From: Sphingobium sp.
GTDB lineage: Bacteria; Pseudomonadota; Alphaproteobacteria; Sphingomonadales; Sphingomonadaceae
Direction: 5' to 3'
Assembly: GCA_020446425.1 (NCBI GenBank)
Contig: JAGRES010000013.1
Span: 62,001-126,000 of the forward strand
DNA length: 64,000 nucleotides
A model generated the notes under the pieces. The model searched no databases, was not told the origin of the DNA, and saw only the letters and a program-made list of their open reading frames with translations. The translations under genes were made by a program, and so were the position numbers. Below are positions 17,607 through 47,723 of this stretch, one piece after another (position 1 is the first letter of the stretch; every line of letters starts with the position of its first letter).

Positions 17607-18328
17607 GAGATGTAATTCCCGCTCTTGAGCCAAGCTCGCGTCACATCCCGGATCTGCCGTTGACGCGCGTCTATATTGTCAAGATCAAGCTTGTAAGGAA
17701 CACATTCCGCGCCCAGGCCAGATGCAAACGCCACGACCTCAGGGTCCTCCAACGCCGTATCCGGTCCCACGATAGCCAGTAGGGTCGCACGCTCCAATTT
17801 AATTGGTGCAGTGAAGTGCAGCTCTATCGAAGCCGCTCGCTGATCATAGTCCGTCTTGCCGTTTGGAACGCATATCTGCTTCATACTATAGCTATGGAAA
17901 TCGAGCGTTGAAATTCGGTTCGATAGATCATCCCGCACTTTCCATTCATAATAAGCTGCGTTGTCTTCAAAAAAAGCATTGACCACCTGAGCAGGCATTT
18001 CTTTCTTCTGCGGAAGATAATATTCTTCCATCACTGCATTATCGCAAATATCACGATAAAATTTATCATAGCCGCCAGAATCGAAAGGCAGCATACTCGC
18101 GGGACAAGGCAATTTATTGTAATCTAAAATAAATGTATAAAGTGCCGAAAAGATATCACTGCTTGATCTGCCATCACTATTCGGCCGATAACTCGGTTTC
18201 CCGTAAAAGAAGAATGAAGCCTCCTTACCAATAACGGAGTCAAGCTTTCCGACTGCAATCTCTCCGCTATCCATAATCCGCAAGAAGCTTCGTCCAAAGC
18301 AAGTGTGCATAACCGGAAGGATCGGCAT
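17603..18328 (-). CDS. Conserved protein of unknown function (FFYGKPSYR family), first gene of cassette
   Basis: A 241-residue cytoplasmic protein with no signal peptide or membrane segment. It begins with a His-containing segment (MHTCFGRSFLRIMDSGEI), then FFFYGKPSYRPN near residue 40, LPFDSGGYDKFY near 100 and a helical C-terminus. From memory, an unnamed bacterial family shares the early His, FFYGRPAYR and FPFDSGAF pattern. The His followed by a Tyr-Arg motif recalls ADP-ribosyltransferase-like folds such as DarT, but I cannot confirm that. The start is the ATG at 18328; the ATG at 18310 is an alternative. It is coupled by ATGA to the CBS protein and is A+T-rich with rare-looking codons, suggesting horizontal transfer. 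Confidence 0.7.
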   Translation of the reverse strand: MPILPVMHTCFGRSFLRIMDSGEIAVGKLDSVIGKEASFFFYGKPSYRPNSDGRSSSDIFSALYTFILDYNKLPCPASMLPFDSGGYDKFYRDICDNAVMEEYYLPQKKEMPAQVVNAFFEDNAAYYEWKVRDDLSNRISTLDFHSYSMKQICVPNGKTDYDQRAASIELHFTAPIKLERATLLAIVGPDTALEDPEVVAFASGLGAECVPYKLDLDNIDARQRQIRDVTRAWLKSGNYIS

Positions 18329-30541: not shown

Positions 30542-31855
30542 ATGATTAATTGCAAAAGATTCGCAGAATCATTAGCATTTAGCGTGAAATTTCAGACTGT
30601 TATCGCTACCGCCGCTTTGTCGATATCGGCAGGGGCAGCCAGCCAACCAGCTCTCGCCAATACGCTGACTCAGGAACAGGCGTTGGGCAAAGCGCTGTTT
30701 TTCGACAAGAGCCTGTCTGCGACGGGACAACAGGCATGCGGATCATGCCATTCGGCCAGCACCGGCTTTACCGACCCCGACAAGTCACACCCCACATCCA
30801 AGGGCGACAACCCGCTCCTGTTCGGCAACCGCAATACGCCGACCGCCATGTATCAGGCCTACAGCCCCGAATTCGGTTATGACGCGACCGAGGGTCTGTG
30901 GGTTGGCGGCCAGTTTCTCGATGGGCGGGCAGCAACACTTGAGATACAGGCCATGGCGCCGTTTCTGAACCCTGTGGAAATGGGCAACGCCTCCAAGGCC
31001 GTGGTCATCGCGAAACTGCAGAATGGCATCAACGCCTCGGCTTTCACCGCCGTTTATGGGGCCGATATCTTCAACAATGTCGACAATGCCTATGACAAGG
31101 TGGCCCAGGCCATCGCATCCTACGAGCGCTCTTATGAGCTGTCACCCTTCACCTCCAAGTTCGATTATTACCTCAAGGGCGAAGTCAAGCTGACGCAGAG
31201 CGAACAGCGCGGCCTTGCGCTGTTCAACGATCCGATGAAGGGCAATTGCGCGGCTTGCCACATCAGCGATCCATTAGATGACGGCACACCGCCGCTGTTC
31301 ACCGATTTCACATACGATAATATCGGCATTCCGAAAAACTATGGCAGCGACTTCCTGACGCTCGACGATGAATTCAACCCCGACGGCACCAGCTTCATCG
31401 ACTATGGCCTCGGCGGCGTGCTGGATGACGAAGACCTTTATGGCGCGTTCAAGGTTTCAACCCTGCGCAACATCGCGATCACCGGCGCCTATGGCCATAA
31501 TGGCTGGTTCGACACGCTCGATCAGATTGTCGATTTCTACGCCACGCGCGACGTAAAGCCGCAATGCACCAGCTCAAACATTAGCTCGACCGAGGCGATG
31601 CTGCTGGGCTGCTGGCCGAAAGCGGAATTTCCGGACCAGATGAATGTCGATGAGCTCGGCAACCTGCCGCTCAACAAATGGGAAAAGCAATATATCGTCA
31701 GCTTCCTCGGCACGCTGACCGACGGGTACAGCTTCGCCGCTGTGCCGGAGCCGCAGACATGGGCGCTGATGATCGTCGGGCTTGGTGGTGTTGGCGCGGG
31801 CCTGCGCCGCTCGCGCCGCAGGCAGGCGAAACGCGCCATACAAACCGCATCCTGA
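30542..31855 (+). CDS. Di-haem cytochrome c peroxidase/MauG-family protein with PEP-CTERM sorting tail
   Basis: A 437-residue exported protein with a signal peptide ending at SQPALA, two c-type haem sites CGSCH (66-70) and CAACH (236-240), and the CCP/MauG fold (ALFFDKSLSATGQQ, NRNTPTAMYQ, FKVSTLRNIAITGAYGHNGW). The last 37 residues are a PEPxxWA-CTERM signal: VPEPQTWALMIVG, a hydrophobic helix, then an RRSRRR cluster. That tail targets a protein to exosortase for cleavage and surface or matrix release, which is unusual for a redox enzyme. GGGGTGAG precedes the ATG at 30542. No exosortase gene is in the window. Confidence 0.88.
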   Translation: MINCKRFAESLAFSVKFQTVIATAALSISAGAASQPALANTLTQEQALGKALFFDKSLSATGQQACGSCHSASTGFTDPDKSHPTSKGDNPLLFGNRNTPTAMYQAYSPEFGYDATEGLWVGGQFLDGRAATLEIQAMAPFLNPVEMGNASKAVVIAKLQNGINASAFTAVYGADIFNNVDNAYDKVAQAIASYERSYELSPFTSKFDYYLKGEVKLTQSEQRGLALFNDPMKGNCAACHISDPLDDGTPPLFTDFTYDNIGIPKNYGSDFLTLDDEFNPDGTSFIDYGLGGVLDDEDLYGAFKVSTLRNIAITGAYGHNGWFDTLDQIVDFYATRDVKPQCTSSNISSTEAMLLGCWPKAEFPDQMNVDELGNLPLNKWEKQYIVSFLGTLTDGYSFAAVPEPQTWALMIVGLGGVGAGLRRSRRRQAKRAIQTAS

Positions 31856-34706: not shown

Positions 34707-35846
34707 ATGGGCGATCCTTCTTCTTCACTGGCGGGCTTTCCGGCGGCATCGGTCAAGCGGCTGGTCGTCAAGATCGGCTCTGCCCTGCTCGTCGACAGCG
34801 ACGGCGCGATCCGCAGCGAGTGGCTGGCGGGCGTCGCGGCAGATATCGCCGCGCGGCGCACGGCGGGACAACAGATCATCGTCGTATCCTCCGGCGCGAT
34901 TGCGCTGGGTGCGCGCCGCCTTGCCCTGCCCAAGGGCGGGCGTGGCAGCCTGGACGATGCACAAGCCGCCGCCGCCGTTGGCCAGATCGCGCTGTCGGGG
35001 CATTGGGCGAGCCTGCTTGGCGACAATGGCCTCACCGCCGCCCAGATGCTGCTCACGCTTGACGATCTGGAAAACCGCCGCCGCTATCTCAACGCCGCCG
35101 CCACGCTGGAGAGGCTGCTCTCGCTGGGCGTCGTGCCGGTCATCAACGAGAATGACAGCGTCGCCACCACGGAAATCCGCTTCGGCGATAATGACCGGCT
35201 GGCCGCGCGCATCGGGCAGGCGGCGCGCGCCGATGCCGTAGTGCTGCTCTCCGATGTTGATGGCCTCTACACCGCCAATCCGCACGGCAACCCGGATGCG
35301 CGGCTGGTACCCGAAGTCAAGCGTATCGACGCCGATATTCTGGCCATGGCCGATGGCGGATCGGGCAGCGGCATGGGGTCGGGCGGCATGGCCTCCAAAA
35401 TCGAAGCCGCGAAAATCGCCACCGGCGCAGGCGCGCACCTAGCAATCATTTCGGGCAAGGCGGATCGGCCCTTGTCGGCATGGGAAGGCGGCGCGAACGG
35501 CACCATCTTCCTCGCGCAAACGGGCAAGCGCGCGCGCCAGAACTGGATCGCGGGCCGCTTAACGGTGAAGGGCTGGATCCTGATCGACGCTGGTGCAGAA
35601 GCGGCGCTGCGCAAGGGCAACAGCCTGCTTCCCGCTGGCGTTACTGAAATCGACGGTAGCTTCGCGCGCGGCGATATGGTCGATATCTGCGCGGCGGATG
35701 GCCAGCCCATCGCGCGCGGCCTTGCCGAATATGACGCCGATGACGCGCGGCGCATCGCGGGCAAACGCAAGAGCGAGATCGCATCGCTGCTCGGCACCGC
35801 CATGCGCCCCGCACTCGTCCACCGGGACCATATGGTCATCCTATGA
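34707..35846 (+). CDS. proB: Glutamate 5-kinase
   Basis: A 379-residue ProB that phosphorylates glutamate in the first step of proline synthesis. The amino-acid kinase domain (VVKIGSALLVDSDG, VSSGAIALGARRL, INENDSVATTEIRFGDND, GSGMGSGGMASKIEAAKIA) covers about residues 15-265 and a PUA domain the rest (GWILIDAGAEAALRKGNSLLPAG). Its stop overlaps the next gene's start as ATGA, linking proline synthesis transcription to the reductase of the sphingolipid cluster. Confidence 0.95.
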   Translation: MGDPSSSLAGFPAASVKRLVVKIGSALLVDSDGAIRSEWLAGVAADIAARRTAGQQIIVVSSGAIALGARRLALPKGGRGSLDDAQAAAAVGQIALSGHWASLLGDNGLTAAQMLLTLDDLENRRRYLNAAATLERLLSLGVVPVINENDSVATTEIRFGDNDRLAARIGQAARADAVVLLSDVDGLYTANPHGNPDARLVPEVKRIDADILAMADGGSGSGMGSGGMASKIEAAKIATGAGAHLAIISGKADRPLSAWEGGANGTIFLAQTGKRARQNWIAGRLTVKGWILIDAGAEAALRKGNSLLPAGVTEIDGSFARGDMVDICAADGQPIARGLAEYDADDARRIAGKRKSEIASLLGTAMRPALVHRDHMVIL

Positions 35847-36751
35847 CACGCATCGTCGCAATGACCGGCGCAACCGGCTTTGTCGGCGCTGAGACGCTCG
35901 ACCAACTCGCAGAAGCCGGTTTCGAGATCCGCGCGCTCGTCCGCCGCGCGCAGAACGAACGGGCGCATGTCACGTGGGTGCCCGGCTCTCTCAACGATCC
36001 TGCCGCGCTCGATACATTGATCGCGGGTGCGGACATCGTGCTGCATATCGCCGGGGTGGTGAATGCACCCAATCGGGCAGGGTTCGAGGCAGGCAATGGC
36101 GCCGGAACCGCCAATGTCATCGCCGCAATGAAGCGCGCGAGCCTGACGCGCCTGATCCATGTATCCTCCTATGCCGCGCGCCAGCCGGAGCTGTCCGACT
36201 ATTGCGGGTCGAAGCATCTGGCCGAGGAACATGTGCGTGCGTCCGGCCTCGATTGGACCATGGTCCGCCCGCCCGCCGTTTACGGCCCGCGCGATACCGA
36301 GTTCCGCGAAGTCCTGCGCGTGGCCCGCCATGGCCTGCTGCCCGTTCCCTCCGTTGGCCGCGCTTCGCTTATCCATGTGCGCGATCTAGCGCGCGTGCTT
36401 GTCGCGCTGTGCGGCGGGGCGGGAGACCAGCATGTTGGCGCTTTGTGGGAAGTCGATGACGGCGCACCGGATGGCCTGTCACACAAGGAGTTGGCTGCCG
36501 CCATTGGCCGCGCGCTGGGCCGCAGGATTATCGCCCTGCCCGTGCCGCAGGCCGCACTGATGACGATTGCCAGGGCAGACCGGCTGGTGCGCGGCAGCCG
36601 CGCCAAGCTGACGCCCGACCGCGTGCGCTATATGTGTTACCCGGATTGGGTGGTCGACCCCGCCAAACGTCCGCCCGCCGATTTCTGGGCGCCCCAGATT
36701 TCCTATGACGAGGGCCTTGCCGAAATAGCCGCTTCCTTCAAAAGAGGGTAA
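35843..36751 (+). CDS. NAD(P)-dependent epimerase/dehydratase-family reductase, CerR-like
   Basis: A 302-residue extended short-chain dehydrogenase with the nucleotide motif GATGFVGAETLDQL, the HIAGVVNAPNRAGF loop and a catalytic-type Ser-Tyr region (HVSSYAARQPELSDYCGSKHLAEE, YxxxK replaced by YCGSK). In Caulobacter an epimerase-annotated protein next to serine palmitoyltransferase and its carrier protein acts as ceramide reductase (CerR); the same gene order here suggests the same role, reduction of the 3-keto group. That is inference from context and family. It is coupled to proB by ATGA and followed by the carrier protein. Confidence 0.75.
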   Translation: MTRIVAMTGATGFVGAETLDQLAEAGFEIRALVRRAQNERAHVTWVPGSLNDPAALDTLIAGADIVLHIAGVVNAPNRAGFEAGNGAGTANVIAAMKRASLTRLIHVSSYAARQPELSDYCGSKHLAEEHVRASGLDWTMVRPPAVYGPRDTEFREVLRVARHGLLPVPSVGRASLIHVRDLARVLVALCGGAGDQHVGALWEVDDGAPDGLSHKELAAAIGRALGRRIIALPVPQAALMTIARADRLVRGSRAKLTPDRVRYMCYPDWVVDPAKRPPADFWAPQISYDEGLAEIAASFKRG

Positions 36752-36850
36752 GGGGTCGCCATACCCCTGCCCGATTACCGCCTTATTCGCTTGCCAAAGA
36801 CCGCCAAGCACAGGCATGAACCGCCACTGGAATAACAAGAAAGACGACAG

Positions 36851-37093
36851 ATGACCGATCGCCAGCAGATTTTCGACAGCATCGCCGCGCAGATCGCGCC
36901 CTTCAACAAGAAGGAGGTTGAGCTGACCGAGAGTACCACTTTCGCAGGCGATCTGGAGTGGGATAGCCTGACCGTCATGGATTTCGTCGCTGCGATTGAA
37001 GACGAGTTCGACATCATCATCACGATGAACATGCAGGCGGAGATCGAAACCGTGGGACAGCTCGTCGACGCGGTCGTGAAGTTGCAGGGATAA
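36851..37093 (+). CDS. Acyl carrier protein for sphingolipid synthesis
   Basis: An 80-residue acyl carrier protein with the phosphopantetheine serine Ser39 in EWDSLTVMDFVAAIEDEF. The motif DSLT instead of the DSLD of AcpP and the separate location beside serine palmitoyltransferase mark it as a dedicated carrier (AcpR-like), which hands the acyl chain to the synthase. It lies 99 bases after the reductase; a nested palindromic repeat separates it from spt. Confidence 0.85.
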   Translation: MTDRQQIFDSIAAQIAPFNKKEVELTESTTFAGDLEWDSLTVMDFVAAIEDEFDIIITMNMQAEIETVGQLVDAVVKLQG

Positions 37094-37103
37094 TCATGAA
37101 TCC

Positions 37104-37228
37104 CGTTCGTCCTGAGGAGCCGCGCATGCCTGTGCTTGTCGAAGGCGAAGCGGCGTCTCGAAGGACAGAACGCAGAGGGCCCTTCGAGACAGGGCTTCGA
37201 CAAGCTCAGCCCCTCCTCAGGGCGAACG
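37104..37228. repeat. Nested palindromic intergenic repeat (REP-like, sphingomonad type)
   Basis: Three nested pairs of arms: CGTTCGTCCTGAGGAG-like outer arms (37104-37119 with the complementary block ending at 37228, two mismatches/indels), CTTGTCGAAG with CTTCGACAAG (37135-37144, 37195-37204, perfect) and GTCTCGAAGG with CCTTCGAGAC (37155-37164, 37181-37190, perfect). From memory this is a high-copy intergenic element in sphingomonad genomes. Only one copy lies in this window. In RNA it would form a long stem between the carrier protein and spt genes and may alter message stability. Confidence 0.8.
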
Positions 37229-37248
37229 GATATTAGGACCGATACAAG

Positions 37249-38454
37249 ATGACCGATCTTTTCTCGAAATTCGACGCGCTAATTGGGGAGCGTGAGGCGC
37301 TGCTCGCCACGGGCGTACGCGACCCCTTCGCCATCGTCATGGACGAGGTAAAATCCCCCACACTTGCCGTCATCAAGGGCAAGGAGACGATCCTGCTCGG
37401 CACGTACAATTATATGGGCATGACTTTCGATCCCGACGTGGTGCAGGCGGGCAAGGATGCGCTCGATAATTTCGGATCGGGTACCACCGGCAGCCGCGTT
37501 CTCAACGGCACCTATCAGGGCCACAAGGCGTGCGAAGAGGCGCTGCAGGAATTTTACGGCATGGATCATGCCATGGTCTTTTCGACCGGCTATCAGGCCA
37601 ATCTGGGTATGATCTCCACGCTCGCGGGCAAGGGTGACTATATCATCCTCGACGCCGACAGCCACGCGTCCATCTATGACGGCTGTTATCTCGGCAATGC
37701 GGAGATCGTGCGCTTCCGCCACAACAGTGTCGAGGATCTCGACAAGCGTCTGGGCCGCCTGCCGGAAGACGCGCAAAAGCTGGTGGTGCTGGAAGGCGTC
37801 TATTCGATGCTGGGCGACATCGCGCCGCTGCCCGACATGGTCGCCGCTGTCCGCAAGCACAAGAATTGCATGATCCTGGTCGATGAAGCGCACGGCATGG
37901 GCTTTTTCGGTCCCAATGGACGCGGCGTATACGAGGAGCAAGGCGTCGAGGACGAGATCGACTTTGTCGTCGGTACCTTTTCCAAAAGCGTCGGCACGGT
38001 CGGCGGCTTCTGCGTATCCAACCACCCGAAGTTCGAGGTGCTACGCCTGGTGTGCCGCCCCTATGTGTTTACCGCATCGCTGCCACCCAGCGTTGTCGCC
38101 ACCGCCGCGACCTCGATCCGCAAGCTGATGCACGCGGGGAACAAGCGCGCGCATCTGTGGGAGAACAGCAAGCGCCTGCATACCGGCCTGCGCGAAATGG
38201 GATTCAAGCTCGGCACCGAAACGCCACAATCGGCAATCATCGCCGTGATCCTGACCGATCAGACGCAGGCCGTTGCCATGTGGCAATCGCTGCTGGAGCT
38301 GGGCCTTTACGTCAACATGGCGCGTCCGCCCGCGACGCCGGCAGGCACCTTCCTGTTGCGTTGTTCGCTATGCGCTGAACATAGTGACGAACAGGTCACA
38401 CAGATCCTCGGCATGTTCGAAGCGGCGGGCAAGGCGACCGGCGCGATAAGCTGA
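37249..38454 (+). CDS. spt: Serine palmitoyltransferase
   Basis: A 401-residue alpha-oxoamine synthase family PLP enzyme that condenses L-serine with a palmitoyl thioester to 3-ketosphinganine, the first step of sphingolipid synthesis. The PLP lysine is Lys246 in GTFSKSVGTVGGF, with DEAHGMGFFG upstream and the glycine-rich GSGTTGSRVLNGTYQGH substrate loop. The adjacent carrier protein and the clear sphingomonad setting favour SPT over the related KBL and ALAS enzymes. Sphingomonads use this product in place of lipid A. Confidence 0.9.
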   Translation: MTDLFSKFDALIGEREALLATGVRDPFAIVMDEVKSPTLAVIKGKETILLGTYNYMGMTFDPDVVQAGKDALDNFGSGTTGSRVLNGTYQGHKACEEALQEFYGMDHAMVFSTGYQANLGMISTLAGKGDYIILDADSHASIYDGCYLGNAEIVRFRHNSVEDLDKRLGRLPEDAQKLVVLEGVYSMLGDIAPLPDMVAAVRKHKNCMILVDEAHGMGFFGPNGRGVYEEQGVEDEIDFVVGTFSKSVGTVGGFCVSNHPKFEVLRLVCRPYVFTASLPPSVVATAATSIRKLMHAGNKRAHLWENSKRLHTGLREMGFKLGTETPQSAIIAVILTDQTQAVAMWQSLLELGLYVNMARPPATPAGTFLLRCSLCAEHSDEQVTQILGMFEAAGKATGAIS

Positions 38455-38522
38455 CCGGATTACAGTCTGTTACAGTTCCTAACGCGCTTTCCTCTGTTCC
38501 GCTTATGGTCTAGACAGGCGCA

Positions 38523-40532
38523 ATGGCGGACCCTATCCTTGACGATATGGAGGATGTAACCCCTTGGAAAAAAAGGGTTGATCGCGCGCTGCCGATATTG
38601 ATCGGCACGTCCCTGTTCATCGCCATCGGGGCCCTGCTTTATTATTCCAGCATGACCGCGCGAGACCAGAACCGCGCTCTGATGGATCAGCAGCGCAGCT
38701 ACGAGATCGTCACGCTGTCCCGGCGCCTTGACTCCACCATCGCCAAAGCGGAGTCCACGCTTGCCCGCTATGTCATCAGCATGGACCGCGACATCGGCCT
38801 GCAATATCAGGATAAATGGCAGTCGGCATCGAAAGAACTGGAGGCTCTGAAGCGCGTAACACGCAACGACCCGGTGCAAAGGCAACTGGTCGACAAGCTG
38901 AGCGCCGCATATCGTGAACGCGGCAATACGCTGAACGATATCGCACTGCGCATCAATTATAACCAGAAGGAAACCGCGCTCGGCAAATTCTATCAGGCCA
39001 GCAAGGCGCAAAGCCTCGCCCGCATCAACAGCCTGCTCGAGCAGGTTATAGAAACCGAGAACGAACGCCTGCGCGAAAGCAATGTCGTTGTCGAAAAGGC
39101 CGGAGACGAAGTCCAGCAGGTTACCAAGACATACCGGCTTGTCGGCCTCGCCCTGATCATTGGCCTGCTGGTTCTGGGCTGGTTTGTGCGCATGATCATG
39201 CAGGAGCGCCGGCGCGAGCGGCGGGAAATTGATGACGAATATTTCCGCGCGCAGGCTCTGGAGGCAGCTGTCTCCGCACGCACGGAAGAGCTGCAACTGG
39301 CTTATGCCAAGCTGCAACAGGAATCCTCGGAACGAGCCCGGGCAGAGGAAAGCCTACGGCAGATGCAGAAGATGGAAGCCGTCGGCCAGCTGACCGGCGG
39401 CATCGCCCATGACTTCAACAATATGCTGACCGTGGTGGTGGGCGGGCTGGAGCTGGCGCGCAAGCGGGTCGAGGACGTGCATGACGCCGTGCGCCATATC
39501 GACAATGCGATGGAGGGCGCGAACCGCGCTTCAGAACTGACGCGACGCCTGCTGGCCTTCGCGCGCTCCGAACCGATGCTGCGGGAAACCCGGTCGCCCG
39601 ATGAGCTGGTTCAGGGGATGGCCGACCTGATCGACCGCGCCATTGGCGACCAGGTGAAGGTCAATCTGGACCTGCATTGCGACGACTGGAAAATCCATGT
39701 CGACAGCCACCAGTTCGAAAATGTCGTGATCAACCTGGCGGTCAATGCGCGCGATGCGATGGAAGGCCGCGGCACCCTGACCATCCGGACCGGGCATAAC
39801 CGGCTGCGCGCTGGCGAGATTGGCGACTGCGCCGCGGGTGAATATATATTGCTGTCGGTCGTCGATGACGGATGCGGCATGTCCGAACATGTTCTGGAGC
39901 ATGTGTTCGAACCCTTTTTCACCACTAAGGATATCGGCAAGGGCACAGGCCTGGGCCTCAGCCAGGTGTTCGGTTTCGTTCGTCAGTGCGCCGGAGAAAT
40001 TCGCATTACCTCGCAACCGGGCCAGGGCGCGAAGGTCGATATATATCTCCCCCGCCATCAATCGGCCCCCGTCGGCATGCAACCTGCGAATATAGCGCAA
40101 CCAGCCAAGCCTGTTGCCTCGGCCGATAATGATGATGCCCTGGGCGTGAAAATATTGGTGGTTGAGGATGATCCCCGCGTTTTGGCGCAAACCCGGTCCG
40201 CTCTCGCGGACCTCGGTCATGACTGCATAAGCTGTGACCACCCGCACAAGGCGATCGCCATGTTGCAGGAAAACCGGGATATCGAACTTATCCTCAGCGA
40301 TGTTCTGATGCCCGACATGACCGGGCCGGAGATGATCGCGTCGCTACCTCCGCTCTATCAGAGCATACCGGTAGTATTTGTGACAGGATATGCGGGCGAT
40401 GTTTCCGGCAATGAAATGTTCGAGGGCCATTCCCTGCTGCGCAAACCCTATACACTCATGGCATTGAAGCAGGCGATCACGCAGGCAGTCAGCCAACAGC
40501 GCGCTTTATCATCAAGCGTGGTACAAGCATGA
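38523..40532 (+). CDS. Hybrid sensor histidine kinase with receiver domain
   Basis: A 669-residue membrane kinase: transmembrane segment about 21-43, a CHASE3-like periplasmic helical domain, second segment about 207-225, coiled coil, HisKA with His296 (GGIAHDFNNMLTVVVGG), HATPase (NLAVNARDAM, DDGCGMSEHV, GKGTGLGLSQVFGF) and a C-terminal receiver with Asp593 (LILSDVLMPDMTG). Its location inside the sphingolipid cluster suggests, without proof, that it senses envelope state. Its 3' end overlaps the convergent Tam41-like gene by 44 bases. Confidence 0.9.
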   Translation: MADPILDDMEDVTPWKKRVDRALPILIGTSLFIAIGALLYYSSMTARDQNRALMDQQRSYEIVTLSRRLDSTIAKAESTLARYVISMDRDIGLQYQDKWQSASKELEALKRVTRNDPVQRQLVDKLSAAYRERGNTLNDIALRINYNQKETALGKFYQASKAQSLARINSLLEQVIETENERLRESNVVVEKAGDEVQQVTKTYRLVGLALIIGLLVLGWFVRMIMQERRRERREIDDEYFRAQALEAAVSARTEELQLAYAKLQQESSERARAEESLRQMQKMEAVGQLTGGIAHDFNNMLTVVVGGLELARKRVEDVHDAVRHIDNAMEGANRASELTRRLLAFARSEPMLRETRSPDELVQGMADLIDRAIGDQVKVNLDLHCDDWKIHVDSHQFENVVINLAVNARDAMEGRGTLTIRTGHNRLRAGEIGDCAAGEYILLSVVDDGCGMSEHVLEHVFEPFFTTKDIGKGTGLGLSQVFGFVRQCAGEIRITSQPGQGAKVDIYLPRHQSAPVGMQPANIAQPAKPVASADNDDALGVKILVVEDDPRVLAQTRSALADLGHDCISCDHPHKAIAMLQENRDIELILSDVLMPDMTGPEMIASLPPLYQSIPVVFVTGYAGDVSGNEMFEGHSLLRKPYTLMALKQAITQAVSQQRALSSSVVQA

Positions 40533-41409
40533 AAGCAGCGAGCAACGGGTGACGCCGCTGCCACGGCGTAATGACGATATCCGTGCCGGCATGCCGGTTT
40601 ATCTTCCACGCCAGATAATCTATTCCTCCGGCGAAAGTGAAACTCGCCTTCGTCAGCCGCACAACGCTCAGCCACTTGCCGCGCCACTGCAGCTTGCGCC
40701 AGCGCCGTGCATTGGCACGCTGCGCTGGCTCGCTTGATGAGGCTCCCGGGTCGATGGCTCCCTCGGCAATGGCCGCATCGAACACCTTCCGGTAATATTC
40801 GGGATCGGCATCGACAATGCTGGCCGCCCTACCCTTGCGCTCGGCGCGCAGCTCGGCGCGATAGGTATGCGAAAAGCCATGGTCGAATACGGCCTGCCAA
40901 TCGCCACGCCGGTCCGCCGCAACGCCGGGCAACGCCATGGTGAGCAATGTCGGCGCAGCGGCGCTGACAGCATTCGCCATGGCAGTGCGCGCCTCGTCAT
41001 CCGCTATCCAGACGAGCCGCGACGGCTGCGCGAAGCGCGCCCATACCGAAACATTATCAGCCTCCGCCCCACACAGGCGCTCAAAATCTGCCTGCGACAG
41101 AACGGCATATTTGGCGCTCAACCCATCATGCGCGAAGGGAAATACATTGGGGGGAATGAGGCGGTTAGCAATAGCCAGCCAGCTCTTGCCATAAGCGGAG
41201 CGATAATCGGATACGATCAGATAGAAATCGAGCATCAGTCCATCGAGCTGACGCTCGCGCAGGCAGGACCCATAAAACAGCACCGCCCGCGACGCGCCGG
41301 GATAAAGCGCCGCAATCGCCTCCGCCATCGCGGTGGCACGTGAATCAACCGGTTGCGACAGTTCATCGGCAACAAGAGCCGATAGTTTAGATTGGCTGGA
41401 GAAGGTCAC
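40489..41409 (-). CDS. Tam41/Mmp37-like nucleotidyltransferase, candidate CDP-lipid synthase
   Basis: A 306-residue protein with no signal peptide. Its N-terminal half fits the Tam41 (mitochondrial CDP-diacylglycerol synthase) pattern: FYGSCLRERQLDGLMLDFYL (residues 45-64, GS followed by Asp56 and Asp61 as metal ligands), then LSAKYAVLS (97-105) and WARFAQPSRLVW (123-134), equivalent to the K-YGVI and L-AGR-KP blocks. Tam41 makes a CDP-lipid from a lipid phosphate and CTP. The upstream lipid kinase is coupled to it by a GTGA overlap, so a kinase product (phosphatidate or ceramide phosphate) is the likely substrate. The family assignment is from motif memory; substrate is inference. A basic, hydrophobic C-terminus may bind membrane. 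Confidence 0.65.
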   Translation of the reverse strand: MTFSSQSKLSALVADELSQPVDSRATAMAEAIAALYPGASRAVLFYGSCLRERQLDGLMLDFYLIVSDYRSAYGKSWLAIANRLIPPNVFPFAHDGLSAKYAVLSQADFERLCGAEADNVSVWARFAQPSRLVWIADDEARTAMANAVSAAAPTLLTMALPGVAADRRGDWQAVFDHGFSHTYRAELRAERKGRAASIVDADPEYYRKVFDAAIAEGAIDPGASSSEPAQRANARRWRKLQWRGKWLSVVRLTKASFTFAGGIDYLAWKINRHAGTDIVITPWQRRHPLLAAFMLVPRLMIKRAVG

Positions 41410-42380
41410 GCCGCCAGACGCAGGAAGGGTACGGGCGGTGTCGATTTAAGGACGATGGGCCGCCCTTCATCCGCCTGAAAAATCTCGCCATCCAGAATGA
41501 CGCTGCTGTTCTCGCCCTCGATGCGGATGGTATCGCCATGCTCCAGATGGATACCCTCCATCTGGCGCGAACCGAACCGGCCCAATATGCTCAGGAACAG
41601 CATGACGAACACAGCCTTCGGGCTGTGATCGACCGCCAGCAATTTCAAACGGCCGCCTGCGGCCTGTCCGGCAGGGCGCGCACCCAGCAACAGCTTTTCC
41701 AGCGTCGTGACGATAAGCACCGCAAATCGGCCCGCCAGCTGCCCGTCTCGGATCAGCGATATGGACACAGGCCGCGCGGCGGGCGGCATATACCGCCCCT
41801 TGATCCCGAAAAACACGGACGCCAGCACCGCCATAGCCGTCAGGAAGTGCGATATCCCGTTGGACAGGCCCAGCGGATAGATGCGGTTGCGGCAATAGAG
41901 GATCGAATCCGCCAGGCCCGCTCCGCCCAAAAACATTCCCAGCACCGGGCGGCTGCTATCCTCTCCATCAGACAGGGCGATCAGCTCACGCGCGACGACA
42001 TGGTTGGCGATGTCCGTCTTCGCGATATGGACAATGCGCTCCAGCGCCTTGATGGGGTCGCCCCGAATACCCAGATCAAGTGCGATCAGATTGGTCTTGC
42101 CATTGGGTAGCACCGCAACCGGAGGTACAGCACCGCCTTCAAAATAGCTGCCCTGATACAGCTCGGTCAGCGCGGTCTGCACCGTACCATCTCCGCCGTT
42201 GATGACGATCACGGTCGGCTTCACATGCGCGATCATCTGCATTGCGCGGCCGATCTGCTCGACGCTTTCTACTTCATAATGGAAGATATCGAGATGGTTC
42301 GCGCAATAGCTGCGGACGCGCGGAAGCAACTGGCGGTTGCCCGTCGATCGGGGATTGGACAGTAAAGCGACGCAAACCAT
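41406..42380 (-). CDS. Diacylglycerol/ceramide kinase-like lipid kinase
   Basis: A 324-residue DAGK-catalytic-family kinase with the nucleotide motif INGGDGTV (residues 60-67), PNGKTNLIALDLG and a C-terminal beta domain with GDTIRIEG and DGEIFQAD. It phosphorylates a membrane lipid. Caulobacter CpgB, a member of this family in a sphingolipid locus, is a ceramide kinase, so ceramide is a good candidate substrate here; diacylglycerol or sphingoid base are alternatives. AAAGGGGAGGG lies upstream of the ATG at 42380. Its stop overlaps the Tam41-like gene as GTGA; DUF2141 lies upstream. Confidence 0.8.
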   Translation of the reverse strand: MVCVALLSNPRSTGNRQLLPRVRSYCANHLDIFHYEVESVEQIGRAMQMIAHVKPTVIVINGGDGTVQTALTELYQGSYFEGGAVPPVAVLPNGKTNLIALDLGIRGDPIKALERIVHIAKTDIANHVVARELIALSDGEDSSRPVLGMFLGGAGLADSILYCRNRIYPLGLSNGISHFLTAMAVLASVFFGIKGRYMPPAARPVSISLIRDGQLAGRFAVLIVTTLEKLLLGARPAGQAAGGRLKLLAVDHSPKAVFVMLFLSILGRFGSRQMEGIHLEHGDTIRIEGENSSVILDGEIFQADEGRPIVLKSTPPVPFLRLAA

Positions 42381-42407
42381 ATGGACCGGCGGTGTGCCCT
42401 CCCCTTT

Positions 42408-42911
42408 CTACATATATTGCAGCCGAATGGCGATGCTGGTGGGATGCTTGCCGACATCGACGCCCACCTTGTCGACCGGCGGCTTGCCCAGATTGAAGAT
42501 ATTGGCCTTCGGATTATTGGAAAATCCGCCGCCATCTTTCCAGATGTCGGTCTTGCCATTGCCATTGGCGTCATGACGCACGGCAATTCCATAGCTGCCT
42601 GCGGTGGGAACCGGCATACAAACGCGCATGACGCCGTTCACCGGCTTCACGTCCATCTCGATGCGATTGAGCCAGCGCCCTTTTTCCAGCCACTCGCTCT
42701 TGGTCGCGCGATAGGACTGAACACGGATACGGCCATTATCCTTCTCGAAATTGCGAATTTCGATCAGCACGGCGGGGCCGGAATTGGAATAGCATTTGCT
42801 CATATCGTTCGATATGACCTGCTTCGCATAGGCCAGCGATTGCGTACTGACCGCGCTCAGGGCGACGCAGCCAAGTGCAAGCACCGGAACTTTGCGTGAA
42901 AATTTAAACAT
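42408..42911 (-). CDS. DUF2141 secreted protein
   Basis: A 167-residue exported protein: signal peptide MFKFSRKVPVLALGCVALSAV to about residue 25, then a DUF2141 domain with VLIEIRNFEKDNGRIRVQSY and the signature IAVRHDANGNGKTD. The family is a small periplasmic beta-sandwich of unknown role. The ATG at 42911 has GAGGAGAG about 9 bases upstream; the frame open to 43001 reads through the divergent lptF promoter. It heads a three-gene unit with the lipid kinase and Tam41-like gene. Confidence 0.85.
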   Translation of the reverse strand: MFKFSRKVPVLALGCVALSAVSTQSLAYAKQVISNDMSKCYSNSGPAVLIEIRNFEKDNGRIRVQSYRATKSEWLEKGRWLNRIEMDVKPVNGVMRVCMPVPTAGSYGIAVRHDANGNGKTDIWKDGGGFSNNPKANIFNLGKPPVDKVGVDVGKHPTSIAIRLQYM

Positions 42912-43037
42912 GACCAAGTCTCTCCTCGAAGCTATAGCCCGCACATGGCACATGCCGGTGCGCGGGTGGCCCTGTTCGCCCCAAGGGTGATATGGGATCA
43001 ATTTGCGGCCAAATCATGGTGACGGGACGACGATAAA

Positions 43038-44255
43038 TTGAAACCGCTGAGTGCGACCGACCGCTACATCGCGAAACAGATTGCCATTCCGCTCGCCAGC
43101 ACGCTGGTGATCGCCGCGATGCTGCTGGTGCTCGACAAGATGCTGCGCCTGTTCGATTTCGTCGCAGCGCAAGGCGGCCCGGTCAGTGTCGTATGGCGTA
43201 TGCTGGCCAATATGCTGCCCGAATATCTATCGCTGGGCATCCCGATCGGTCTGATGCTGGGCATATTGCTGGGGTTCCGTAAGCTCGCTTTGTCATCCGA
43301 GCTGGACGTGATGCGCGGTGTCGGCCTGTCCCCTGCCCGGTTGCTGCGTGTGCCCTATATGTATGCCATTGCACTCGCCGCCGTGAACTTCGCAATTGTC
43401 GGCTTCATTCAGCCCTATGCCCGCTATGCTTATGAAGGCCTACAATATGAGCTGCGTTCCGGCGCGCTGGGCGCGTCGATCAAGGTCGGGGAATTCACCA
43501 ACCTAGGCAAGCAGATGACCCTGCGCATCGAGGAAAGCCGCGATCAGGGCCGCGACCTGCATGGCATTTTCGTGCGCGTCGAACAGAAAAGCGGACAGTC
43601 GCTGGCGGTGACCGCCGCGCGCGGCACCTTTCTGGGCACCGATGATCCAGACACGATCATATTGCGCCTGACCGACGGCGTATTGGTGCAACGTTCCGAC
43701 AAATTATCCAGCCCGCGTATCCTCAGCTTTTCCGGGCATGACCTACCGATCGACCTGCCGAAGATCGAGAATTTCCGCGGGCGCGGCGACAGGGATCGCG
43801 AGCTGACTCTGCCCGAACTGGTGCAGGTCGGCATGGCGGACAAGACCGATGTCATGACCCGCAACGAGGTGCGCGCCAATTTCCACTTCCGGCTGGTCGA
43901 GGTGGCGATGATGTTCCTGCTGCCACTGGCGGCGCTGGCCTTCGCCATACCGCCCAAACGCTCGACATCGGCGCTCGGCGTATTCCTGTCTATCGTCTTT
44001 ATCGTGACCTATCACAAGATCAACCAATATGCCGAAGCGATGGGCGCATCCGGGCGGATCGACCCGCTACTGGCCCTGTGGGTTCCCTTCATGGCCTTCG
44101 CCGCGCTGATCCTGTGGATGTACCATGTCATTGCGCATCGACCCGGCGGCCAGCCTATCGGTGCGCTAGAGGCTGTATTTGCCAAGATCACCCGCTGGCT
44201 CTCGAAATGGTTCCGTTTCGGGCGGCAGAGGCTCAAGCATAACGTGCAGATGTAG
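43038..44255 (+). CDS. lptF: LPS/lipid export permease LptF (YjgP/YjgQ family)
   Basis: A 405-residue permease with three N-terminal transmembrane helices (about 15-105), a periplasmic jellyroll domain (about 130-260) and three C-terminal helices (about 295-385). Start motif DRYIAKQIAIPLASTL and the GFRKLALSSELDVMRGVGLSP coupling helix are typical. LptF and LptG with the ATPase LptB extract a lipid from the inner membrane for transport to the outer membrane. The start is a TTG at 43038. In sphingomonads, which lack classical lipid A, the cargo may be a glycosphingolipid. Confidence 0.9.
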   Translation: MKPLSATDRYIAKQIAIPLASTLVIAAMLLVLDKMLRLFDFVAAQGGPVSVVWRMLANMLPEYLSLGIPIGLMLGILLGFRKLALSSELDVMRGVGLSPARLLRVPYMYAIALAAVNFAIVGFIQPYARYAYEGLQYELRSGALGASIKVGEFTNLGKQMTLRIEESRDQGRDLHGIFVRVEQKSGQSLAVTAARGTFLGTDDPDTIILRLTDGVLVQRSDKLSSPRILSFSGHDLPIDLPKIENFRGRGDRDRELTLPELVQVGMADKTDVMTRNEVRANFHFRLVEVAMMFLLPLAALAFAIPPKRSTSALGVFLSIVFIVTYHKINQYAEAMGASGRIDPLLALWVPFMAFAALILWMYHVIAHRPGGQPIGALEAVFAKITRWLSKWFRFGRQRLKHNVQM

Positions 44256-44267
44256 GGCGAGGCCGCG

Positions 44268-45368
44268 ATGCAACTCCAGTTCTTCCCATCCCGCCGCCTC
44301 GCCATCTATATGGCACGCAGCTTCCTGATCCGCAGTTTCGCGGTGCTGGCCATGCTGGTGGTGGTGCTGATGACGCTCGATCTGCTTGGTGAGAGCGGTA
44401 ATGTGCTCGCCGCACCGGGCAATGGCGAAGCGGAGCTATGGCGCTATGTCGGCCTGCGCCTGCCGCAGATTGTCGCCCGCTTCCTGCCCTTCTCGGTTCT
44501 GCTCGGTACACTCATCACGCTGGCGACGATGAACCAGCATAGCGAGATCGTGTCGATGAAGGCGGCAGGGTTATCGGCGCACCAGATATTGGCGCCGCTG
44601 TTTCTCGCCGCGGCTGGTATCGCGATCGTCAGCTTCACATTCAACGAGCGCATCGTCACGCGGGCGACCGCCGCGCTCAACGCCTGGGAAGACGTCGATT
44701 TCGGCGAGGTGCCGCGCGACAGCGGCGTGAAAACCAATGTGTGGGTGCGCGAGGGCAATAACCTTGTCACTGCGGGCATCATCACCGGCAGCGGCCATGA
44801 AGTCGCGTTGCAGCAGGTGGAGATCTTCAACCGCATCAACAACAGGCTCGTCAACATCATCCGCGCGCCCAACGGGCATTATGACCCGCAGGCGAAGGAC
44901 TGGGTGCTGGAAGGCGCGAAACTGTTCGACGTCAATCGCGGCACGGTCAACCATATCGGCACCATCCATGCCGCCAGCGGCGTGCGGCCAGATCAGTTCA
45001 CGCTGGCCAAGGTGGACCCGGACGGCTTGACATTCTTCAAGCTGCGTGAGGCCATATCCGACCTGCGCGATGCGGGTCGCCCAACCCAGTCGCTGGAGGC
45101 TAGCCTGTGGCACAAGCTGGCCGGGCCGCTTTCCGCCCTGCTGATGCCGCTGCTGGGTTCCGTATCGGCCTTCGGCTTAGCGCGCTCGGGCCATTTGTTC
45201 GTGCGCGCGGTGATCGGCATGGCGCTGGGCTTCACCTATTTCGTCGCGGATAATTTCGCGCTCGCCATGGGCAATCTGGGCGCCTATCCGCCCTTCCTCG
45301 CCGCGTGGGCGCCGTTCCTGCTGTTCGTTCTGGTGGGCGAAGCGGTACTGATCCGCACGGAGGAGTGA
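44268..45368 (+). CDS. lptG: LPS/lipid export permease LptG (YjgP/YjgQ family)
   Basis: A 366-residue paralogue of LptF, 12 bases downstream, with the same 3 + periplasmic + 3 helix layout. N-terminus RRLAIYMARSFLIRSFAVL and the MNQHSEIVSMKAAGLSAHQI coupling helix are clear. It pairs with LptF in the transport complex. It is followed 4 bases later by the convergent desaturase gene, leaving no room for a terminator. Confidence 0.9.
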   Translation: MQLQFFPSRRLAIYMARSFLIRSFAVLAMLVVVLMTLDLLGESGNVLAAPGNGEAELWRYVGLRLPQIVARFLPFSVLLGTLITLATMNQHSEIVSMKAAGLSAHQILAPLFLAAAGIAIVSFTFNERIVTRATAALNAWEDVDFGEVPRDSGVKTNVWVREGNNLVTAGIITGSGHEVALQQVEIFNRINNRLVNIIRAPNGHYDPQAKDWVLEGAKLFDVNRGTVNHIGTIHAASGVRPDQFTLAKVDPDGLTFFKLREAISDLRDAGRPTQSLEASLWHKLAGPLSALLMPLLGSVSAFGLARSGHLFVRAVIGMALGFTYFVADNFALAMGNLGAYPPFLAAWAPFLLFVLVGEAVLIRTEE

Positions 45369-45372
45369 AACC

Positions 45373-46431
45373 TCAGTCGCGCTTCACCATTGTGCTGCGC
45401 GCGATCTTCGCCACCAGAGGCAGCATGCCTTTATAGTTGGCGCGCTCATAGGTGGAGCCCGCACCCAGATGCGCAGTCAACCGGCGGTTGGCCTCGGCCA
45501 ATGAATGATAGGGCATGCTAGGGAGCAGGTGATGCAGCGCGTGATACCGCAGGCCGACCGGCGCCCACAGGCCCGGCAGCGTACCTGGCGGTGGCACATT
45601 GACCGAATCCAGATATTGCGCGGTCACCGTCATCGCCTCGCCATCATTCTCCCAGAGATGCGCAACCAAGGTACGCAGCTGGTTCAATACAGCGGTCAGT
45701 GAAAACACGCCCAGCGCAATAAGCAGCGGACGCCAGCCGATAAACTGCGTGCTCGCCAGCAGCGCGATGGCCCACACGCTTGCGCCCAGTTCCTGCCAGA
45801 ACACCATGCGCTTGAACGCCCCTTCGGGCGGGCGGCGGCGGAAATCCGGGTTGATCGACAGCGCCGACACACGCTCCCACACCAAAGTACGCAGCGGCGG
45901 AATGAGCGCCCCCAGCGGCACCAGTATCGCCGAGCGGATGAGCAGCAATGGCGGCGCGAGCAGCGCCACCACGATGAACAGCGGCAGCGACCATGGCTTC
46001 ATCAGCGCGAGCGGCAGATATTCCGGATCGTCCGGCGTGCCATAGCGCGTGCGCGCATGATGCAGCGTATGCACGCCCTCATACATGAAGGAGGGCGTGA
46101 GCATAGGAATGCCGACAATCAAGTTCCAGACAAAGCGGAAGCCGGGCAGCGCATTCTTGTGAATATGGGTCAGTTCATGGATGAACAGCAGCGCGCGATA
46201 CAACGCGAGCGCCGCCACCACGCCGCTCGCCACGGCCAGCGCACCGTTTTCCAGCAGGATCGCTCCGGCCAGCGCAGCATAACCGACAACTGCCGAAATT
46301 AGCATGTCCGGCCAGTAAATTCCGGGCCGCGCCGCCGACAGGTCGCGCGTCAAATCTACCGCCGCGCGCAACATCGCCGCGTCATCGGGGGTCTTGGCCG
46401 CCTTCTTGTCTATCTTCTCATACGCCGTCAT
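45373..46431 (-). CDS. Membrane fatty acid desaturase/hydroxylase family protein
   Basis: A 352-residue inner-membrane di-iron enzyme with the three histidine boxes: HELTHIHK (HxxxH type), HTLHHARTRYG (HxxHH) and HALHHLLPSMPYH (HxxHH). Several hydrophobic helices lie between them. It uses O2 to introduce a double bond or hydroxyl into an acyl or sphingoid chain. Position between lptG and the ceramide-synthase-like gene suggests a sphingolipid substrate, but the sequence does not prove it. The ATG at 46431 (MTAYEKIDKK) has GAGGCGGG upstream. Confidence 0.82.
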   Translation of the reverse strand: MTAYEKIDKKAAKTPDDAAMLRAAVDLTRDLSAARPGIYWPDMLISAVVGYAALAGAILLENGALAVASGVVAALALYRALLFIHELTHIHKNALPGFRFVWNLIVGIPMLTPSFMYEGVHTLHHARTRYGTPDDPEYLPLALMKPWSLPLFIVVALLAPPLLLIRSAILVPLGALIPPLRTLVWERVSALSINPDFRRRPPEGAFKRMVFWQELGASVWAIALLASTQFIGWRPLLIALGVFSLTAVLNQLRTLVAHLWENDGEAMTVTAQYLDSVNVPPPGTLPGLWAPVGLRYHALHHLLPSMPYHSLAEANRRLTAHLGAGSTYERANYKGMLPLVAKIARSTMVKRD

Positions 46432-46517
46432 GCACCCGCCTCTAAAATCCAATTGCGCGCAGATCATGGCAGCAAAGTGACATAATCATTGTCCAACTTC
46501 CCGGCACATCGTAACAA

Positions 46518-47723
46518 GTGCGCCGCATTCCCGGCTTTGACGCCAGTCAATATGAAAGCACCGTCGTGACAGCATCCGAAGTAGTGATCTCTCCCGTTTC
46601 CGGCAAGGCGGACCTGAAGGCGTTCGTCGATTTCGCCTGGGACGTTTACAAGGACGATCCGAACTGGGTGCCGCCGCTGAAGGACGAAGTCCATGGCATG
46701 CTGACCCCCGGCAAGAACCCGTTTTTCGGACATGCCGAGGCGCAATATTTCCTCGCGCGGCGCGGCGGCGCGATCACCGGACGCATTTCCGCGCATATCG
46801 ACACGCTGGCGCTGACCATGCCGCCGGAGCAGGGCATGGGCCCCGGCACCGGTTTCTGGGGGATGTTCGACGCGCTGGACGGGGAAAGCGCACAGGCGCT
46901 GATCGCCACCGCCGAAGACTGGCTGCGCGGCAAAGGTATGACGCGCGCCCTGGGACCGATCTCGCTCTCGATCTGGGAGGAGCCGGGTCTGCTCACCAAG
47001 GGGCATGACCATCCGCCAACGGTGATGATGGGCCACCATCTCGCGCGCTATCAGCCTTGGGTCGAGGCGGCAGGCTATGCCTCCGTCAAGGAACTGCGCA
47101 CCTATGAACTGGACATCACGCAGGATTTCCCGCCGCTGATCCAGCGCATCGTAAAGTCTGGCGAGAAGAGTGACCGCATCCGCATCCGCAAGGTCGACAA
47201 GCGCAAGTTCGACGAGGAAGCTGCGATCATCCTCGCCATCCTCAACGACGCATGGGGCGACAATTGGGGCTTTGTGCCGATCACGGATGAGGAAGTGGCG
47301 TTCACCGGCAAGAAGCTGAAACCCATCGTGTTCGAGGATCTGATCCGCATCGCCGAGCTGGATGGCGAACCCGTCGCGTTCATGATGACGCTGCCCGACC
47401 TCAATGAAGTGCTGAAGCCGCTCAACGGCAATCTCTTTCCGTTCGGTTGGGCCAGGCTGCTCTGGTGGCTGCGCAAGCCGAAGGTTCGCACGATGCGCGT
47501 GCCGCTGATGGGCGTGGTCAAGCGACTTCAGGCCAGCCGCATGGCCAGCCAGCTTGCTTTCATGATGATCGAATATATCCGTCGCTCCGCAATCACCGAC
47601 TATGGCGCAACGCGCGGCGAGATCGGCTGGGTATTGGATGACAATCAGGGCATGAACGCGATTGCCGACGCCATCGAAAGCCAAGTAAACAAAGTCTATA
47701 CGGTGTACGAGAAGCCGCTGTGA
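46518..47723 (+). CDS. GNAT-like acyltransferase, bacterial ceramide synthase (bCerS)-like
   Basis: A protein of 401 residues from the GTG at 46518, or 385 from the GTG at 46566 (MTASEVVISPVSGKADL), which looks the more natural start. It has the family opening DLKAFVDFAWDVYKDDPNWVPPLKDE followed by FGHAEAQYFLARRGG-AITGRIS, a GNAT-like fold. Databases often label such proteins N-acetyltransferase; the Caulobacter ceramide synthase bCerS belongs here, N-acylating the sphingoid base. The match rests on memory of the family and on the sphingolipid cluster. It is divergent from the desaturase. Confidence 0.7.
   Translation: MRRIPGFDASQYESTVVTASEVVISPVSGKADLKAFVDFAWDVYKDDPNWVPPLKDEVHGMLTPGKNPFFGHAEAQYFLARRGGAITGRISAHIDTLALTMPPEQGMGPGTGFWGMFDALDGESAQALIATAEDWLRGKGMTRALGPISLSIWEEPGLLTKGHDHPPTVMMGHHLARYQPWVEAAGYASVKELRTYELDITQDFPPLIQRIVKSGEKSDRIRIRKVDKRKFDEEAAIILAILNDAWGDNWGFVPITDEEVAFTGKKLKPIVFEDLIRIAELDGEPVAFMMTLPDLNEVLKPLNGNLFPFGWARLLWWLRKPKVRTMRVPLMGVVKRLQASRMASQLAFMMIEYIRRSAITDYGATRGEIGWVLDDNQGMNAIADAIESQVNKVYTVYEKPL

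Follow-up and report, generated by a model that had tools for sequence, protein, structure and literature searches.

This work concerns a window of 64,000 nucleotides of Sphingobium sp. DNA (assembly GCA_020446425.1, contig JAGRES010000013.1, positions 62,001 to 126,000), by which we mean the whole stretch analysed, and within it a cluster of putative sphingolipid genes. The cluster lies on contig C8 of a 2.73 Mb genome, where eleven genes follow one another downstream of proB. All eleven are open frames at the window coordinates given here, 12 kb in total. A preliminary description of the window had claimed this gene set, from a reductase to an acyltransferase resembling the bacterial ceramide synthase (bCerS), and open frames, sequence profiles and structure models bear it out:

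35843..36751, + strand: reductase of the SDR/epimerase type, CerR-like (Pfam NAD_binding_10/Epimerase; position shared by many relatives; 4-nt overlap with proB)
36851..37093, + strand: dedicated acyl carrier protein, ACP (PP-binding; adjoins SPT in relatives)
37249..38454, + strand: serine palmitoyltransferase, SPT (NF047603 above cut-off; PDB 2x8u)
38523..40532, + strand: CHASE3 hybrid histidine kinase with receiver domain, accessory (Pfam CHASE3-HisKA-HATPase-receiver)
40489..41409, - strand: Tam41-like nucleotidyltransferase, TAM, CpgC-like by position (fold match to Tam41; kinase within 2 kb)
41406..42380, - strand: DAGK-type lipid kinase, KIN, CpgB-like (DAGK_cat; overlaps TAM by 4 nt)
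42408..43001, - strand: DUF2141 protein with an N-terminal signal sequence apparent by eye (PF09912)
43038..44255, + strand: LptF of the sphingolipid-locus type, sole genome copy (TIGR04407, copy number, tree)
44268..45368, + strand: LptG of the sphingolipid-locus type, sole genome copy (TIGR04408, copy number, tree)
45373..46467, - strand: membrane fatty acid desaturase/hydroxylase, accessory (PF00487)
46518..47723, + strand: tandem-GNAT acyltransferase, bCerS-like, CERS (model match to tandem GNATs)

SPT matched NF047603 with 791 bits (cut-off 670), and its nearest PDB chain by sequence was 2x8u, a serine palmitoyltransferase (E 5e-231). In 118 genomes sampled evenly from the order (in the GTDB sense), every genome had an SPT match, 117 of them at 556 bits or more and G013 only at paralogue level. 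The bCerS-like protein of the window had no Pfam match of its own; 21 of the 25 members of its alignment, the window protein excepted, matched the GNAT family (E up to 1). Its structure model (predicted local distance difference test, pLDDT, 90.3) matched tandem-GNAT structures (E 1.5e-14); bCerS is itself GNAT-related. By its position, the SDR/epimerase-type gene would be the ceramide reductase. Spt, carrier protein, CerR-like and bCerS-like genes stand together in this locus as they do in Caulobacter.

TAM escaped recognition by sequence. No Pfam or NCBIfam model matched it, a Tam41 sequence model matched none of 37 sequences (TAM and 36 relatives, E up to 10), and PDB sequences searched with the TAM profile gave no hit better than E 0.5. 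Its AlphaFold2 model, built on an alignment of 37 sequences, reached a pLDDT of 91.5, and the top PDB match in Foldseek was mitochondrial Tam41 (6ig4, E 3e-6). Alignments with five Tam41 chains were nearly full length, with template modelling (TM) scores of 0.43-0.53 and 13-14% identity. TAM furthermore contains YGS and DF motifs, which Tam41 carries in the same order. The model suggests that TAM is probably a cytidine triphosphate (CTP):ceramide-1-phosphate cytidylyltransferase. This substrate assignment is tentative because the Tam41 match is weak and other nucleotidyltransferases rank close behind.

For KIN, assignment to a family was more direct. It contains a DAGK_cat domain, matched YegS in the PDB (E 2.6e-7), and its GGDGT and LDGE motifs are invariant or nearly so in the KIN alignment. 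Inspected by eye, KIN has the GGDG motif and lacks the eukaryotic CxxxCxxC motif, the combination described for CpgB-type ceramide kinases (PMC10331486). Judged by these sequence features, KIN is probably a CpgB-like ceramide kinase. TAM and KIN are neighbours close to spt, with the hybrid kinase gene between spt and TAM in the window. No more than 2 kb separates the two in any of the 80 TAM-bearing genomes of the 118, and their 4-nt overlap recurs in 11 of 49 loci compared.

The preliminary description had named conservation of gene order across Sphingomonadales as a check, and the arrangement does recur across the order and the class, with exceptions, so that the refuting condition set there on gene order does not hold. 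TAM was found in 80 and KIN in 97 of the 118 genomes. We read 60 regions, that is, 40 from the 55 TAM genomes of higher similarity, 10 from the 25 of low similarity and 10 SPT neighbourhoods (seven from genomes without TAM and KIN, one of low similarity, two with KIN and without TAM). The typical order was CerR-ACP-SPT-[TAM KIN DUF2141]-LptF-LptG-CERS. In the 40 regions of higher similarity (L035-L074), LptF or LptG occurred in 39, SPT in 35 and CERS in 35. Among 193 genomes of the class, TAM was present in 26, two of them of the window's own family; in 20 neighbourhoods read from the 24 TAM genomes outside the family, which represent other orders of the class, KIN was found 18 times, LptF/LptG 17 times and SPT 16 times. 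A scan of named genomes yielded at least 585 relatives of one TAM; the loci of the 80 best-matching ones were evaluated and showed Lpt in 64 loci, SPT in 58, KIN in 64, CERS in 55 and Lpt or SPT in 77, with many of these loci ending at contig edges. They include records of Sphingobium, Sphingosinicella, Kordiimonas, Dongia, Pelagibius, Burkholderiales, Nitrospirales, Desulfosarcina and Marinimicrobia. Recurrence of this neighbourhood in further families and orders shows the cluster to be more than a chance grouping.

Five of the named loci (L224, L232, L252, L255 and L258; Nitrospirales, Olavius-associated Delta 1, Desulfosarcina, Marinimicrobia) carry TAM/KIN with Lpt, CERS or CpgA, and the sets thus reach beyond Pseudomonadota.

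The idea that the cluster is intact everywhere had to be rejected, given unlinked TAM/KIN pairs and split loci within the genus. In the higher-similarity group, 49 of 55 genomes place TAM no more than 12 kb from SPT. None of the 25 genomes of the low-similarity group, which belongs to the same family, does so; their TAM/KIN pair sits at a distance from SPT or occupies a different contig. Fifteen further same-genus regions were selected by their LptF/LptG, and all 15 keep KIN-DUF2141-LptF-LptG side by side, with CERS in 14. Named Sphingobium loci show TAM-hybrid kinase-SPT-ACP, without KIN or LptFG in the available stretch. Taken together, these split KIN-LptFG regions and Sphingobium loci suggest that the cluster was broken between TAM and KIN in this genus; the shared layout likewise points to Sphingobium as the genus of the window. 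The claim that the locus works as one system therefore holds in part: genes for ceramide, activation and Lpt are linked across the class, but they are not an obligatory unit (15 of 15 same-genus regions split, 25 of 80 pairs unlinked).

Across the order, gene presence is nested. TAM and KIN were both present in 80 of the 118 genomes, KIN only in 17, TAM only in none and neither in 21 (Fisher 3e-13; all Fisher values ignore relatedness). A profile search of the 38 TAM-less genomes retrieved TAM in none of them; the same profile finds the 26 class genomes. Five genera hold both states, and in each of them TAM and KIN are present or absent together. Of seven genomes without TAM and KIN that were read, five keep SPT beside LptFG and CERS. 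The whole TAM-KIN-DUF2141 block is missing in G088, of the same genus, and in G004, G033 and G098; G116 retains DUF2141. Such natural losses, above all those within one genus, show which lipids to compare.

A second locus, L152 (G000:C3, 3090-6851), contains a flippase-like gene (Polysacc_synt), a CpgD-like cytidylyltransferase and a CpgA-like CDP-alcohol transferase side by side. This island is on a different contig, unlinked to the window cluster, with neighbours that by eye resemble ctaA and sdhB. The interval 35843-47723 that the preliminary description gave for the system is thus too narrow, since further head-group genes lie outside it. The genome's own CpgA-like protein is 37-52% identical, over most of its length, to seven of ten CpgA-cluster members and 31-36% identical to the other three over less. 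CpgA-like genes occur in 19 of 118 genomes at E up to 1e-40, a threshold chosen after a gap between 5e-48 and 7e-20 had been seen, and in 52 at E up to 0.001; CpgD-like genes occur in 18 at E up to 1e-20. Both were present in 18 genomes, CpgA only in one and CpgD only in none (Fisher 2e-20), and all 18 CpgD genomes have CpgA and TAM (CpgD/TAM Fisher 6e-4). CpgA and CpgD are within 5 kb of each other in 14 of the 18, and CpgA is within 10 kb of TAM in four.

Presence hence follows SPT > KIN > TAM > CpgA/CpgD, with a single exception, G116, in which a weaker CpgA-like gene (38% identity) occurs without TAM, KIN and CpgD. This nesting matches the chemistry expected of a pathway that leads from ceramide to ceramide-1-phosphate, to an activated or first-head-group lipid, and to a second head group. 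Nested KIN, TAM and CpgA/CpgD provide an independent, comparative ordering of the pathway.

Two observations on the kinase stand beside this. In f7 genomes, such as those of L093 and L094, the kinase adjoins SPT and TAM was not found in the genome; these genomes may use another head-group route. At L291 (G042:C3, 7699-8493), a shortened kinase with a 273-residue frame and its inner part missing adjoins LptF, LptG and CERS in a genome without TAM, and may be a decaying copy.

TAM and KIN could also belong to glycerophospholipid metabolism, with KIN recycling diacylglycerol (DAG) to phosphatidic acid, TAM as a second CDP-DAG synthase and the place near SPT a matter of history. In agreement with this, the top fold match, Tam41, is a CDP-DAG synthase, KIN belongs to the DAGK/YegS family, and Caulobacter CpgB phosphorylates DAG in vitro (PMC10331486). 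However, TAM and KIN are jointly absent from the 21 genomes mentioned above, all of which retain SPT, and from this it follows that a housekeeping role is disfavoured unless another enzyme covers the step. Moreover, sphingolipid genes neighbour TAM/KIN in most class loci read, and the Caulobacter genes at the corresponding positions are required for ceramide phosphoglycerate (CPG; PMC11324152). We therefore regard this alternative as unlikely and continue with KIN as a probable ceramide kinase.

A further alternative accepts the ceramide substrate and has TAM form a phosphodiester directly, transferring glycerate or another alcohol onto ceramide-1-phosphate with no free CDP-ceramide. This step was proposed earlier and is retained as a possibility in PMC11324152, and it would explain why 62 of the 80 TAM genomes lack CpgA and CpgD at our thresholds. 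The nucleotidyltransferase fold nearest to Tam41 nevertheless speaks for nucleotide transfer, and a direct step was judged energetically not very favorable (PMC11324152), so that we consider it quite improbable and retain CTP activation by TAM as the probable step.

DUF2141 protein tracks the TAM/KIN block. No more than 4.5 kb separates it from TAM in 35 of 40 higher-similarity and 9 of 10 low-similarity order regions (44/50), unlinked pairs included; in these proximity counts, as in those for the same-genus, class and named loci below, a region lacking TAM or KIN was scored as having no DUF2141 by construction. Of ten SPT regions without TAM, one (G116) has it. It is present in all 15 same-genus KIN loci but in only 2 of 20 class loci. 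In the 80 named loci, DUF2141 alone is near TAM in 36, phosphoesterase and/or CpgA alone in 24, both in two and neither in 18. The cluster thus occurs in two main designs, with DUF2141 in the middle or with CpgA and phosphoesterase. No paper joining DUF2141 and sphingolipids was found in the literature searched, a set that leaves most subscription papers outside.

Two other genes that the preliminary description counted as members of the system are better regarded as accessory. The hybrid histidine kinase was rejected as a core part, as it occurs in 13 of the 80 clustered regions and every one of these belongs to the family of the window, and the desaturase, present in 21 of 80, is likewise not supported as a conserved core part. 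A cluster of 36 AasR-like members is found in 35 of 80 regions; for the clusters of relatives, the labels AasR, flippase (Flip), hydroxylase (FAhyd), HIT-like and CpgD were assigned by eye. With six of the 36 AasR-like members as queries against the window only, AasR was not found at the locus, and the weak matches fell on an AMP-binding gene 20 kb off. A HIT-like protein, named so from its motif, occurs in six loci (L134, L135, L141, L151, L082 and L084), and in the class loci L135, L141 and L151 it lies between phosphoesterase and LptF, the place of CC_1157, for which a DUF2141 identity was also considered.

LptF and LptG exceed the curated cut-offs of TIGR04407 (247.5, cut-off 230) and TIGR04408 (297.3, cut-off 240), and the locus pair accounts for both LptF_LptG matches in the genome. 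Each of 15 same-genus genomes has one LptFG pair, one of them with an additional weak fragment; among the other nine genomes of this search, G002 gave four matches, and in the incomplete G008 there was no match. A search for LpxC was negative in all 118 order genomes, that of the window included, and positive in 4 of 14 controls, among them Caulobacter and E. coli. The guess in the preliminary description that these organisms are without classical lipid A is thereby supported as far as LpxC is concerned, and with it lipid A synthesis, a mark of a lipopolysaccharide (LPS)-type Lpt system, goes undetected in this genome. Nineteen TAM-bearing class genomes outside the order were searched. Thirteen possess one LptFG pair each, located not more than 10 kb from TAM in 12 and at about 11 kb in one, and six possess two pairs.

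Trees were calculated for 63 hand-chosen loci, with frames longer than 520 residues (L073, L145, L268) left out; beforehand, the label of L269 had been changed to sphingolipid-type second copy and that of L270 and L272 to extra copy. In the LptF tree, six second copies, called probable LPS-type for their position away from the sphingolipid locus, form one clade (support 100/100). A separate clade of 54 rows (99/95) holds the window LptF and the sphingolipid-locus copies. The LptG tree, made with the quick method only, agrees, with 99 for five second copies and 83 for the rest. At the second copy L165, LptD is beside LptG; at L181, there is no LptD within the short flank. Because the sole pair groups with sphingolipid-locus copies, the LptFG kept in the order is, as judged from the trees, of the sphingolipid-locus lineage.

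Glycosphingolipids are the main lipids of sphingomonads. We had to reject the idea that LptFG serves the phosphorylated lipid solely, as LptFG persists where TAM/KIN are gone. LptFG stays with SPT after this loss, and its cargo therefore includes lipids beyond phosphosphingolipids, most likely glycosphingolipids. That LptF and LptG are ordinary Lpt permeases with a non-sphingolipid cargo, the cluster marking an old neighbourhood, is distinctly unlikely, since, although both proteins score above the generic models and LptFG is far from SPT in some family members (e.g., G078, G108), the order has no detected LpxC, the sole pair falls in the sphingolipid-locus clade rather than the probable LPS-type clade, and LptF or LptG lies beside TAM/KIN in 39 of 40 regions. 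Among the matches listed, with most subscription papers outside them, no title or abstract tested Lpt transport of sphingolipids. An order without detected LpxC and with a single LptFG beside ceramide genes is a clean test system, lacking the LPS background of Caulobacter.

For the pathway as a whole, we infer substrates, a CDP-ceramide intermediate, a head group and an Lpt cargo as follows. Formation of ceramide would fall to Spt and its carrier protein together with the CerR-like reductase and the bCerS-like acyltransferase; the DAGK-type kinase would convert the ceramide to ceramide-1-phosphate. The Tam41-like protein probably joins CTP to ceramide-1-phosphate and so would yield CDP-ceramide. 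A CDP-alcohol-type transferase might then produce a charged lipid such as ceramide phosphoglycerate, and CpgA-like transferase, CpgD-like cytidylyltransferase and flippase of the unlinked locus could carry out a second step of the CPG2 type. LptF and LptG would move glycosylated or phosphorylated lipids with a ceramide anchor in the direction of the outer membrane. That ceramide is made, phosphorylated, probably activated with CTP and exported by Lpt is the explanation we favour, with fair rather than high confidence. We may go one step further and speculate that the Lpt permease of the LPS type was lost from sphingomonads, whose outer membrane now depends on an LptFG lineage dedicated to sphingolipids, that CDP-ceramide is made by an undescribed Tam41-like family, and that a periplasmic DUF2141 protein is a new component of the phosphosphingolipid branch; this larger proposal is put forward only tentatively.

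Several findings weigh against the favoured explanation. The match between TAM and Tam41 amounts to only 13-14% identity and a TM score of about 0.5. Next in rank come an uncharacterised protein of nucleotidyltransferase-like type (E 3e-5) and aminoglycoside nucleotidyltransferases (E 2e-4). The activity of CpgB on DAG in vitro was comparable (PMC10331486). Only 49 of 80 genomes have TAM within 12 kb of SPT, TAM and SPT fall outside the 14-18 kb read in all 15 same-genus regions, and KIN is absent from 15 of the best 80 named TAM loci. SPT and ACP are apart from LptFG in G078 and G080, two of the seven TAM/KIN-less genomes read, and where LptFG does lie beside SPT without TAM/KIN, a phosphorylated lipid cannot be its sole cargo. 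In the 62 TAM genomes that lack CpgA and CpgD, the transferase is unassigned. The CpgA threshold was set after the gap had been noticed, and the Fisher values take no account of relatedness. Finally, two LptF rows, one from Nitrospirota and one from a delta-type symbiont, belong to neither clade and sit on long branches, which, as the tree program warns, may join falsely.

Elsewhere in the window, two genes deserve mention. The frame at 16797-17633, in the stretch of lowest GC content, encodes a KdsD/KpsF-like protein with a CBS domain, whose N-terminal half is without family. At 30542-31855 there is a di-haem cytochrome c peroxidase with a PEP-CTERM sorting signal.

Of the known systems, Tam41 (6ig4, 6ig2) resembles TAM in fold over nearly its full length; it differs by low identity and the missing sequence-model match, and TAM has ceramide genes as neighbours. 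In analogy to the LPS exporter LptB2FG, LptF and LptG here pass the curated models, but they form a clade separate from the probable LPS-type copies in a genome where LpxC was not found.

The closest system is that of Caulobacter, a likeness that rests on gene order and families. The Caulobacter order is aasR, cerR, acpR, spt, CC_1161, CC_1160 (ceramide kinase), CC_1159, CC_1158, CC_1157, LptF2, LptG2, cerS, CC_1153 and CC_1152 (PMC11324152). Ceramide kinase activity was reported for CpgB (PMC10331486); CPG requires CC_1161 and CC_1160, and an NDP-activated ceramide was suggested (PMC11324152). CpgD makes CDP-glycerate, and CpgC, the second enzyme of the pathway, is stated to work by an unidentified mechanism and has no assigned activity (PMC12275187). 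The route of sphingolipids to the outer membrane is stated to be unknown, and transport by LptF2/LptG2 is proposed, untested (PMC11324152). With CC_1168-CC_1152 our locus shares the cerR-acp-spt core, genes of the CDP-DAG-synthase-like and ceramide-kinase types near spt, an LptF2/LptG2-type pair and the ceramide synthase beyond. DUF2141 here occupies the place of CC_1159/CC_1158/CC_1157. Both genomes have CpgA-like and CpgD-like genes, but unlike in Caulobacter, these and the flippase gene are unlinked to the cluster here and lie at G000:C3. Likewise, aasR is part of the Caulobacter cluster, whereas a search of the window did not find it at our locus, and LptF/LptG are second copies in Caulobacter but the sole pair here, with no LpxC found. 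The class loci L141 and L132 have nearly the Caulobacter order with one or two extra genes. For two Sphingomonadales, Sphingomonas wittichii and Zymomonas mobilis, the orthologous genes are reported to be spread over 6 and 10 distant regions, respectively (PMC11324152). Against these scattered examples, the core is contiguous in the window and in the majority of the 40 regions that we read.

Because Caulobacter order and components have already been described, what is present here is a variant, found in Sphingomonadales, of the phosphosphingolipid cluster of Caulobacter and not a new kind. The genes are indeed grouped as the preliminary description proposed, but both the grouping and the export proposal had been published for Caulobacter (PMC11324152). 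New beyond that work are the Sphingomonadales design of the cluster, its single LptFG lineage, the nested losses and the Tam41-like fold at the CpgC position.

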